From positions 2,232,001 through 2,296,000 of the forward strand of contig NZ_CP035914.1 of the NCBI RefSeq assembly GCF_004209775.1: DNA of 64,000 nucleotides, in the 5' to 3' direction. Shown piece after piece: positions 9,745-12,388 of this stretch. Made by a program: the position numbers and the translations under genes. Numbering within the stretch: position 1 is the first letter of the stretch; the number at the start of each line of letters is the position of its first letter. The DNA is from Synechococcus sp. WH 8101 (GTDB lineage Bacteria > Cyanobacteriota > Cyanobacteriia > PCC-6307 > Cyanobiaceae). The notes under the pieces are model-generated. The model did no database searches and was not told the origin of the DNA. It was given only the letters and a program-made list of their open reading frames with translations.

Positions 9745-11280
9745 ATGCTGGCACGTTGCCTGAGCGCATCCATCGTCGGCCTCGACGCCCGTCCAGTGAC
9801 CGTGGAGGTGGATCTGGCGCCGGGTCTACCGGGCCTGCAGCTGGTGGGGTTGCCTGATACGGCGATTCAGGAATCCCGTGAACGGGTGCGCGCTGCACTG
9901 CGCAACAGCGGCTTCCGGGGCCCTCTGGTGCGCGTCGTGGTGAATCTGGCTCCGGCGGATCTGCGCAAGGAGGGACCGGCCTTCGATCTGCCGATCGCCC
10001 TGGCTCTGCTCGTGTCCAGCGGCCAACTCGATGCCCCCCTGCTGCAAGACCTCTGGTGCGCCGGCGAGTTAGGCCTCGATGGCAACCTCAGGCCCTGCCG
10101 GGGCATCCTGGCGGTAGCCAGCCTGGCCGCCGACCGGGGAGCCAGAGCCCTGGTGGTGCCAGCAGCGAACGCGGCAGAAGCGGCCCTGGTGCCCGGCCTG
10201 AGATTGCTGTGTGCCGAGTCTTTGGCAGACACCGTGGCCATGCTTCGGGGCGAGCAGCCCTGGAACGATCGACCGCAACCGCTGCAGGGACCCGTTGGAC
10301 AGCCAGCTCCAGCGGCCGCACCCGCTCCGGTGGTCGGCCAGGCTGTGGCTCAGCACGCCCTGGCCCTCGCGGCCGCCGGGGGCCATCACCTCCTCATGGT
10401 GGGGCCGCCGGGGTGCGGCAAGACGCTGTTAGCTCGCCACCTGCCTCAGCTTCTCCCCCCTTTGACGGAGCAGGAATCGCTTGAGATCACTCGCCTGCAC
10501 TCCATTGCAGGGGTGCTTCCCGAACCGATCACACTGTTGGAGCGCCGACCGTTTCGCGCTCCCCACCACAGCTGCTCCGTGGCCGCGCTGCTCGGGGGCG
10601 GCAGCAATCCGAAACCAGGGGAATTGAGCCTCGCCCATGGTGGCGTGCTGTTTCTTGATGAACTGGCCGAATTCCCCCGAGCCCTGCTCGATCAGCTGCG
10701 CCAACCGATCGAAGAGGGTGTGCTGTGGCTGAGCCGCGCCCGACTGAAATGCGCGTTTCCGTGCCGGCTGACCCTGGTGGCGGCCACCAACCCCTGTCCG
10801 TGCGGCTGGGATGGCGATGCCTCCCACCCCTGCCGCTGCCGCCCCACAGAGCGGCAGCGCTACTGGAACCGCCTATCTGGGCCACTACTCGACCGGCTCG
10901 ATCTGCAACTGAGGCTGCATCGCCTCCCCGCCCGAGATCTACGGCGGAGCCTGGACATGTCGGAATCAGACAACTCAGAGGTGCTGCAGCCGGAGAGAAT
11001 CCAACGGGCCCGGCAACGCATGCAGCAACGCAATCCTGCGGGCTGCCTCAACAGCAGCCTGAGTGGCTCAGCACTCGGGCGCATCGGCCAACTCTCCACG
11101 CAGGCCGTGGAGTGCTGGGAGCAGATCGTGAGCCAACGCCAACTTTCAGCCCGCAGCGGCTTGCGCCTGCTGCGGGTGGCCCGAACCCTCGCCGACCTCG
11201 AAGACAAAGACGCTGTGGGCAAGGGCCACATTGCGGAAGCCCTCTGCTTCCGCAGTTTTGATCAGCTGATCAAGGCCTGA
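9745..11280 (+). CDS. comM: YifB/ComM family Mg-chelatase-like AAA+ ATPase
   Basis: 511 residues. The N-terminal LonC-like fold begins MLARCLSASIVGLDARPV with VGLPDTAIQESRERV. Walker A is MVGPPGCGKTLLARHLP (about 218-234), Walker B GVLFLDELAEFPR (about 310-322), and the Mg-chelatase-like C-terminus includes a Cys-rich insert (NPCPCGWDGD...CRC). In Vibrio, ComM is a hexameric helicase promoting branch migration during natural transformation; the same role here is inference from the family. Followed by a terminator-like hairpin at 11431-11456. Confidence 0.93.
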   Translation: MLARCLSASIVGLDARPVTVEVDLAPGLPGLQLVGLPDTAIQESRERVRAALRNSGFRGPLVRVVVNLAPADLRKEGPAFDLPIALALLVSSGQLDAPLLQDLWCAGELGLDGNLRPCRGILAVASLAADRGARALVVPAANAAEAALVPGLRLLCAESLADTVAMLRGEQPWNDRPQPLQGPVGQPAPAAAPAPVVGQAVAQHALALAAAGGHHLLMVGPPGCGKTLLARHLPQLLPPLTEQESLEITRLHSIAGVLPEPITLLERRPFRAPHHSCSVAALLGGGSNPKPGELSLAHGGVLFLDELAEFPRALLDQLRQPIEEGVLWLSRARLKCAFPCRLTLVAATNPCPCGWDGDASHPCRCRPTERQRYWNRLSGPLLDRLDLQLRLHRLPARDLRRSLDMSESDNSEVLQPERIQRARQRMQQRNPAGCLNSSLSGSALGRIGQLSTQAVECWEQIVSQRQLSARSGLRLLRVARTLADLEDKDAVGKGHIAEALCFRSFDQLIKA

Positions 11281-11284
11281 AGCT

Positions 11285-11422
11285 CTAGCGCTTGGGAGCG
11301 TCGCGATAGGGCTGGGCGCCGATCGGGGGAGGCTGATGCTGCTTCTCCTCCCGGGGATTCCCCAGAGCATGGGACAAGCTGTCGCCGAACCAATGGCGTA
11401 AGCCTTTGAGTGTGAAATCCAT
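11285..11422 (-). CDS. Small conserved-type protein, 45 residues
   Basis: A short frame: MDFTLKGLRHWFGDSLSHAL, then a Pro/Gln/Glu-rich tail ending RDAPKR. Support: ATG at 11422 is preceded at 5-nt spacing by a strong Shine-Dalgarno (GGGAGG, plus-strand 11428-11433), and composition is protein-like with an amphipathic N-terminus. No known domain is recognised. The SD overlaps a 9-bp hairpin (separate entry). It is the last gene of a leftward group (DUF3747 protein, rpsU) and is convergent with comM, 4 bases from its stop. Confidence 0.6.
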   Translation of the reverse strand: MDFTLKGLRHWFGDSLSHALGNPREEKQHQPPPIGAQPYRDAPKR

Positions 11423-11430
11423 GACCGCCT

Positions 11431-11462
11431 CCCAGACTGCGTACCTTCAGTCTGGGATTTTT
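11431..11462. promoter_or_regulatory. 9-bp hairpin: terminator for comM and SD-masking candidate
   Basis: Perfect inverted repeat CCCAGACTG / CAGTCTGGG (11431-11439 and 11448-11456) with an 8-nt loop, followed on the plus strand by ATTTTT: a rho-independent-like terminator for the rightward comM transcript. In minus-strand RNA the same stem's 3' arm contains the GGG of the GGGAGG Shine-Dalgarno of the 45-residue gene, so folding would partly hide that ribosome-binding site. The structure is seen directly; the regulatory role is inference. Confidence 0.6.
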
Positions 11463-11550
11463 GTCAGTGAACGCCAACAGGTGATCATGCGCATTTCCGA
11501 CCTTCGCAAGCCTTGGATCCAGGCTTGATCAGCAACGGCTCACCGGCCGA

Positions 11551-11721
11551 TCAGCGACGGCGGCGGCGCTGCTGTGCCTTGCGCTTGTACTTCTCAATCG
11601 GGGTCTCGTGATGACGCAGACGCTTGAGGTCGGCAAAGATTCCGGCCTTGGACACCTGACGCTTGAAGCGACGCAGAGCTGATTCGATGCCTTCGTTTTC
11701 TCCGACCGTGACCTGAGTCAT
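11551..11721 (-). CDS. rpsU: 30S ribosomal protein S21
   Basis: 56 residues: [20 protein letters not shown], the S21 core, and the Lys/Arg-rich end [14 protein letters not shown]21 joins the 30S platform late and aids mRNA base-pairing at initiation. ATG at 11721 is chosen; the frame is open further upstream but that part is unrelated and runs into the DUF3747 gene. Downstream of the DUF3747 gene by 49 bases. Confidence 0.97.
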
Positions 11722-11770
11722 GCAGTAAGCAAGGTTGTCCAGCCGATCAATGTAGCAACCGGCCGGAGCG

Positions 11771-12388
11771 TCAAGGGTTGGCGGGTGTCGGGGGTTCGGC
11801 AGCCGCAGGGGCTGGCTCCGCGTCGGCACCTGGCCAGGACTCCCTGTAGACATACAGATGGCCGAGGGTTTTCTTGCCGTACTGACGACGACGCAACGAC
11901 CAGCCCGGCTCCATCACCAGTTGCAGGAAGTCGCTTCCGGGGCCACCAGCGCGGGCGATCAATAAGGTCGGCTGGGAGGGATCCCGGGTGGGCACCGCCA
12001 ACAGCTCCACATCAGAACCCGTCTTCACCACCGACAACCGATACCGGGTTCCCAAGTCATCAGCACCGATCCGCAGGGAGTAGCCGTTGCCATCGATGTA
12101 GCGGTTGCAGATTCCCGTGAAGTCGAAGGTGGCCAGCAGCGGATCCACCACGGCAGGCGAGGAACCGGAAACGGCGTAACAGGGTCGTTTGCTGCTGCGC
12201 TGCTCATAAATGTTCAGCTGCGCCGATTCCCCCTTGCCGATCGGGGCGGCCACCAGGATGAACCGGGTCTCCTCGACGGGAGCGGCCGTGAACAACGATC
12301 CCTGCGCCCGCACCGATGGGCTGGCGACCGTCGCCAGGGAGCCAGCGGTCAGAGCGGAAGCGAGGGCTATCGAAAAAAAACGGACCAT
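11771..12388 (-). CDS. Secreted DUF3747 family protein
   Basis: 205 residues. Sec signal peptide ([20 protein letters not shown], cleavage near SVRAQG), then the DUF3747 core: FILVAAPIG near residue 43, [40 protein letters not shown] and [20 protein letters not shown]. The tail is Pro/Ala-rich. The family is cyanobacterial, exported and of unknown function. Two cysteines (about 69 and 93) could form a disulfide. rpsU lies downstream on the same strand. Confidence 0.82.

Follow-up and report, generated by a model that had tools for sequence, protein, structure and literature searches.

Genes e, soc, 49 and I-TevI of phage T4 carry hairpins that occlude the ribosome-binding site (RBS), and a late promoter lies in or near the 5' strand of the hairpin, according to excerpts of two papers (PMC3014915, PMC2988022). 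In the same excerpts, long RNA from upstream folds over the RBS, and RNA from the late promoter, which is without the 5' strand, is translated (PMC3014915, PMC2988022). The second system relevant here is AtpTheta (atpT, norf1) of Synechocystis 6803, which excerpts of the literature describe as a cyanobacteria-specific protein of 48 aa (PMC5126843, PMC9241938). Its expression is controlled at the promoter, the 5' UTR and mRNA stability, and likely homologs are reported from all available cyanobacterial genomes (PMC9241938, in excerpt); a BLAST analysis in the quoted part of another paper found norf1 homologs lacking in marine picocyanobacteria (PMC5126843).

Here, we analyze a hairpin immediately upstream of a small gene in the genome of a marine-type picocyanobacterium (one contig, 2.63 Mb). 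We use "the window" for the whole 64-kb stretch of DNA that was analyzed; the features of interest are listed in Table 1. The first-pass annotation had given this hairpin two jobs, as terminator for comM and as a mask over the Shine-Dalgarno (SD) sequence of the small gene. We favor a modified reading, with a probability of roughly 0.6: the small gene would have its own transcription start in the hairpin loop, masking would be limited to RNA reading through from rpsU, and the use as a comM terminator would be specific to one lineage.

Table 1. Features of the hairpin region, with positions counted in the window
Feature	Position	Strand	Properties	Basis
comM/yifB, Mg-chelatase-like AAA ATPase	9745..11280	+	convergent with small gene	TIGR00368 E 4e-153, Pfam Mg_chelatase
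Small gene, candidate picocyanobacterial AtpTheta	11285..11422	-	45 aa	homologue searches, distant profile match
Shine-Dalgarno GGGAGG	11428..11433	-	5 nt before ATG 11422-11420	sequence
Stem-loop TCCCAGACTG-CGTACCTT-CAGTCTGGGA	11430-11457		10 pairs	sequence, RNA folds
3' arm of hairpin	11430..11439	-	contains GGGA of SD	folds
Predicted transcription start region	11441..11445	-	in hairpin loop	inferred from -10 position
5' arm of hairpin	11448..11457	-	contains -10 box	folds, arm comparison
-10 box CAGACT	11449..11454	-	hexamer position conserved	30-31 nt past operator centre
T-run TTTTT	11458..11462	+	completes intrinsic-terminator-like site for comM	terminator scan
-35 box TTGGCG	11472..11477	-	17-nt spacer	TTG at -35 place in 20/34 exact-operator loci
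Operator GGTN6ACC position	11480..11491	-	right half ACC (11482-11480) intact, left half degenerate (CGC)	
rpsU, ribosomal protein S21	11551..11721	-	possible read-through source	TIGR00030 E 6e-20

The small gene and its protein

The small ORF is a true gene that is conserved across picocyanobacteria. It was present in 32 of the 60 relatives searched, and among 201 family genomes 125 gave a match (E <= 0.01). A separate, named collection of relatives consists mostly of Synechococcus, Cyanobium and Prochlorococcus records. Within the genus of the window, 29 of 31 genomes carry it, the window's own included, and the two genomes that missed it are 70% and 80% complete; the earlier concern that the 45-residue ORF might lack conservation is thereby answered. 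The loci compared have a stable start and a product of 44 to 50 aa. A comparison of 38 diverse members left just three invariant residues, W11, P31 and P32, and four that hardly vary, G35, Q37, P38 and P43. The neighborhood is also stable: among 30 loci (L001-L030), comM is convergent with the small gene in all 30 and rpsU lies directly upstream in 29, the exception (L019) being at a contig end. A search for phage copies gave a single Tsukamurella phage, in two records (E 0.5), which we took as chance.

Several observations concern the wider distribution and surroundings of the gene. Five loci (L082, L087, L094, L172 and L185) carry a second type of small gene with a different upstream motif near GGTTAAGTACCTAG, and in some genomes this type occurs beside the usual one (two matches each in G178 and G278). 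Two records titled as Gammaproteobacteria and Spirochaeta MAGs (L153, L155) contain a Synechococcus-type small gene and are likely binning errors. Upstream of rpsU in the window is a gene for a DUF3747 protein (11771-12388, minus strand; Pfam E 9e-62). By eye, a DUF3747-like C-terminus occurs in L092 shortly before the promoter of the small gene, with no rpsU found there.

The small protein may be AtpTheta, an inhibitor of ATP synthase marked by its action on ATP hydrolysis by FoF1 and by induction in the dark; on the strength of a distant profile match we lean toward this identity. When 126 genomes of the class were searched with a profile of the small protein (A2), 36 gave matches at E <= 0.1, the weak ones being partly chance. 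Reading 15 loci, we found that several other cyanobacterial families have proteins of 45 to 59 aa with a tail like [YFI]PxxGxQP[FY]. A profile built from nine such proteins (A3) had a single match in 32 of the 38 genomes of one other family, and in 30 of the 31 of good quality. The two profiles aligned in hhalign at 97.2% (E 3.8e-11), a value with some circularity in it, as A2 had been used to fetch A3. The protein in the window is similar in length to AtpTheta of Synechocystis 6803 (45 and 48 aa). Neither Pfam nor NCBIfam has a family that covers the small protein or the proteins distantly related to it, A1 had no match in the PDB at E <= 1, and a search for one norf1 primer sequence in sets of 388 and 38 genomes and in genome_contigs gave no hit. 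With A3, the PDB gave seven matches at E <= 10; the best (0.0055) came from 12-residue stretches, and we dismissed them as chance.

Putative promoter and hairpin upstream of the small gene

The small gene seems to have its own conserved promoter, with a layout in relatives of GGTN6ACC, a -35 box TTGnCn, a 17-nt spacer and a -10 box CAnACT. We counted its elements in 95 loci (102 fetched, minus 3 repeats and 4 chance matches), which are non-independent, 29 of them coming from one genus. Within 140 nt upstream, 34 of the 95 loci have an exact GGTN6ACC and the other 61 are without one; among 317 control windows taken from these loci, 17 have it. The spacing is tight: in 32 of the 34 exact-operator loci, 60 to 65 nt separate the operator centre from the start codon, and the hexamer [CG]A[GCA][AG][AC]T lies 30 to 31 nt past the centre in 22 of the 34, against only two occurrences at other offsets from 15 to 49. 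Of 10 chosen genomes, 5 have a single copy of the stricter 20-base pattern AACNGGTN6ACCNGTT, and the coordinates put each copy just upstream of the small gene. Because the same pattern read backwards also gave 5 sites in these 10 genomes, the evidence lies in the location of the pattern and not in its number. In some genomes the loop of the operator palindrome is inverted (GGTGTTTTTACC in L067, GGTAGAAACACC in L068), as expected for a DNA site. Operator and -10 box are also kept in five loci (L088, L091-L093 and L097) though no rpsU was found in the upstream stretch fetched.

By consensus, the promoter in the window is weak (TTGGCG/CAGACT). Its footprint would place the transcription start in the hairpin loop, near 11442. 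Since the -10 box lies in the 5' arm, the predicted RNA of the small gene itself starts in the loop and cannot form the hairpin. We also considered the shared upstream blocks as a conserved aptamer-like leader, but their fixed spacing and the symmetry of the operator fit a promoter better. An assignment of the operator to GntR/CGRE1 was unsupported, CGRE1 being confined to yfr2 genes in MED4 in the consulted part of the source (PMC6778093). Our literature search on rpsU together with Prochlorococcus transcription start sites found no paper.

In seven loci (L061, L067-L069 and L071-L073), the operator palindrome of the small gene lies inside a strong intrinsic terminator after rpsU and apparently serves as both operator and terminator. 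Two of these (L072 and L073) have an operator-containing terminator stem, GCGGAAACCGGT...ACCGGTTTCCGC, followed by a T-run.

The hairpin itself is present as first described, one terminal pair extending the earlier 9-bp stem to 10 bp, and the overlap with the SD also stands, GGGA of the minus-strand GGGAGG lying in the 3' arm at the annotated distance from the ATG. The fold of the plus-strand RNA (11422-11470) has -20.3 kcal/mol (z -4.4) and that of the minus strand (11415-11470) has -23.8 kcal/mol (z -5.1), with 0 of 200 shuffles as good in either case; a longer minus-strand fold (11380-11500) has z -2.7, with 3 of 200 shuffles as good. Stems of at least 9 bp with a T-run number four on the plus and three on the minus strand of the window, compared to one in total in eight shuffled single strands, which puts the hairpin beyond chance.

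We then compared the pairing of the segment before the predicted start with the segment after it against shuffles, in the 71 of 95 loci where the promoter could be placed at the standard distance (24 were dropped). Using shuffled 5' segments, the arms pair at p < 0.05 in 14 of 29 loci of the genus versus 4 of 42 outside it; shuffled 3' segments gave 12 of the 29 genus loci. With a narrower segment the count was 16 of 71 loci in all, and the median z over the whole set was 0.06. Among 25 further loci from the named collection, a clade-A type (L187) and a clade-E type (L155) pair well (p 0.010 each), and L172 has p 0.007 with a doubtfully placed promoter.

The arms have different sequences in different clades: CCTCACGTTC/GAACGTGAGG in clade A, CGTCTCTTTC/GAAGAGACG in B, GGCTCCCG/CGGGAGCC in C and CCCAGACTG/CAGTCTGGG in D, the clade of the window. 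Synechococcus WH7803 has arms of the clade-A type. The clades were grouped by us after looking at the arms, and each of the seven is monophyletic on the comM tree. When we swapped arms between clades, native combinations had a mean of -23.4 kcal/mol and cross combinations a mean of -17.7 kcal/mol (permutation p 0.0004; 0.0014 with a narrower definition, and 0.007 without clade E). The clade medians of arm pairing give a combined p of 5e-5, with weak medians in C (p 0.19), E (p 0.19; 2 of 9 loci < 0.05), F (p 0.07) and G (p 0.38). Outside the genus, native and cross pairing are alike (-9.9 versus -9.7) and there is no enrichment. Because the arms differ by clade yet pair better with their own partners, insulation against read-through looks selected in several clades of the genus, and outside the genus there is no such signal.

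Predicted consequences and competing explanations

Folding predictions suggest how the hairpin would act on the two kinds of RNA. In the window, opening the region from -14 to +13 is predicted to cost 22.1 and 24.4 kcal/mol in read-through RNA versus 8.9 to 9.0 kcal/mol in RNA from the gene's own start, and in RNA from 11500 the AUG is predicted to be unpaired at 0.01. In a locus-by-locus comparison with own-promoter RNA, the read-through form is predicted to have the less accessible ribosome-binding region in all 13 loci of clades A to D, and in 3 of 9 loci of E, 5 of 6 of F and 0 of 1 of G. By clade, the mean excess in opening cost (kcal/mol) is 19.0 (D), 11.9 (A), 11.7 (G), 8.8 (C), 4.2 (F), 3.4 (E) and 3.2 (B); for the 42 loci outside the genus it is 3.5 (sd 3.8). 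One of the two loci of clade B shows no rise in cost. Judged by opening cost, then, four clades (D, A, G and C) have a large predicted mask, and the others stay at background, B among them although its arms pair strongly. When the fold takes in more sequence on the 3' side, the SD of own-promoter RNA is paired as well (unpaired 0.03 to 0.47, depending on the end chosen), therefore the contrast between the two RNAs rests on the AUG and the opening cost.

A scan detected no intrinsic terminator after rpsU in the window, so read-through from rpsU is possible. In clade E, a terminator-like stem follows rpsU in 6 of 9 loci and there is little SD mask, and L067-L069 have a terminator-like stem after rpsU yet arms that pair at p < 0.05. 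We dropped the idea of an anticorrelation between rpsU terminator and mask, which rests on about one event.

Under the reading we favor, transcription from the small gene's own promoter (the minus-strand elements of Table 1) would begin in the loop, and the resulting RNA, with the 3' arm only, would be translated. Read-through RNA from rpsU, with both arms, would fold and close the SD and AUG, so that no small protein would be made from rpsU transcription. In the lineage of the window, the same inverted repeat with its T-run on the opposite strand would serve as an intrinsic terminator for comM. The proposal that folding lowers translation is thus plausible for the read-through RNA, and it does not carry over to the gene's own mRNA, which is predicted to be without the hairpin. 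The first-pass annotation had named a minus-strand start inside the stem as fatal to the mask; such a start is what we predict for the gene's own transcript, leaving the mask to read-through RNA only.

The terminator claim has likewise been narrowed. The stem-loop and T-run in the window have the GC-rich stem followed by T residues by which intrinsic terminators are recognized, and termination of comM there is plausible. Yet it is not a shared feature: a terminator-like site on the comM strand 20 to 50 nt before the start of the small gene occurs in 2 of 30 loci, the window (10 bp and TTTTT) and L001 (an 8-bp stem, then AAGTTTT), and the remaining 28 have no such site in that interval. At other points of the comM-rpsU interval, weak terminator-like stems do occur in some loci (e.g., L024 and L018). 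We read the putative comM terminator as a lineage-specific, recent use of an existing dyad. Separately, an 11-bp stem with a T-rich tail lies in the last codons of comM (11230-11256, plus strand) and may only reflect coding sequence; the scan also picked up a stem of this type in L001/L002.

These counts bear on a simpler account, in which the repeat is kept to end comM transcription and overlaps the -10 box and SD simply because so little space separates the convergent genes. The stem passes the terminator scan on the plus strand, such stems are rare by chance, and comM is convergent throughout L001-L030. Against it, the arms pair in clades A and B and in parts of C and F, and too few loci have the site at the hairpin's place for termination to be a reason common to all of them; we consider this account unlikely. 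Less probable still is that the main mRNA of the small gene starts upstream of 11457, carries the whole hairpin and is repressed by it, perhaps in response to a signal. The stability of the hairpin over the SD and the conservation of the gene would agree with it, but the conserved spacing of operator, -35 and -10 boxes puts the predicted start inside the hairpin, and the arms differ between clades without an Rfam match. The suggested response to a ligand or to temperature found no backing: neither a riboswitch nor an RNA thermometer is indicated, as there is no Rfam match at E <= 1 in 11200-11900 and the arms vary between clades, and we judge a hairpin of about -20 kcal/mol probably too stable for an ordinary thermosensor.

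We give very little credence to a role at the level of DNA, with the arms forming a second site for a regulatory protein around the -10 box and start. Dyads do occur there in several clades, but sister clades have arms of different sequence at different positions, which would not be expected of a common protein site, and a change in the clade-A-like L187 leaves a G-U pair, compatible with RNA, that breaks the symmetry of the DNA. We return, then, to the start in the loop with a mask confined to read-through RNA. A fuller version, which we hold only tentatively and think somewhat doubtful, is that an AtpTheta gene behind rpsU in marine Synechococcus is silenced in read-through RNA by a hairpin with the gene's own regulated start in its loop, that the arms were rebuilt repeatedly by compensatory change, and that in one lineage the dyad became a comM terminator; 28 bp of DNA would then act as promoter, translational insulator and opposite-strand terminator.

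Comparison with known systems

If the favored reading is true, a phage trick, the promoter inside an RBS-masking hairpin, is at work in very abundant phototrophs, on a chromosomal gene that is conserved. It would show a way for a small gene to escape leaky expression despite its place behind a ribosomal-protein gene, and would supply a short operator for tracing the small gene's regulator. If the protein is AtpTheta, control of ATP synthase in picocyanobacteria would be linked to a testable promoter. Our narrow literature search recognized no bacterial read-through case.

Compared to the 5' UTR of AtpTheta in Synechocystis 6803, which is 143 nt, that of the small gene in the window is predicted to be about 20 nt. 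As between other convergent genes, a stem and T-run lie downstream of comM; unlike the usual convergent terminator, this one lies beyond the whole opposing ORF and inside that gene's predicted promoter, in 2 of the 30 loci. The closest likeness is to T4 genes e and I-TevI. There, a promoter lies in the 5' strand of an RBS-masking hairpin; here, the promoter footprint puts a putative -10 box in the 5' arm, and the read-through RNA is predicted to fold over the SD and AUG as in RBS occlusion of the T4 type. Unlike the T4 genes, ours is a chromosomal cyanobacterial gene behind rpsU. Its putative promoter resembles the sigma-70 type and comes with a palindromic operator that is conserved, and one lineage has the dyad in a form that could also pass for a terminator of the gene on the other strand. 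In our analysis, the locus is made of ordinary parts in an unusual, testable arrangement, with what appears to be a T4-like trick at work on a chromosomal gene.
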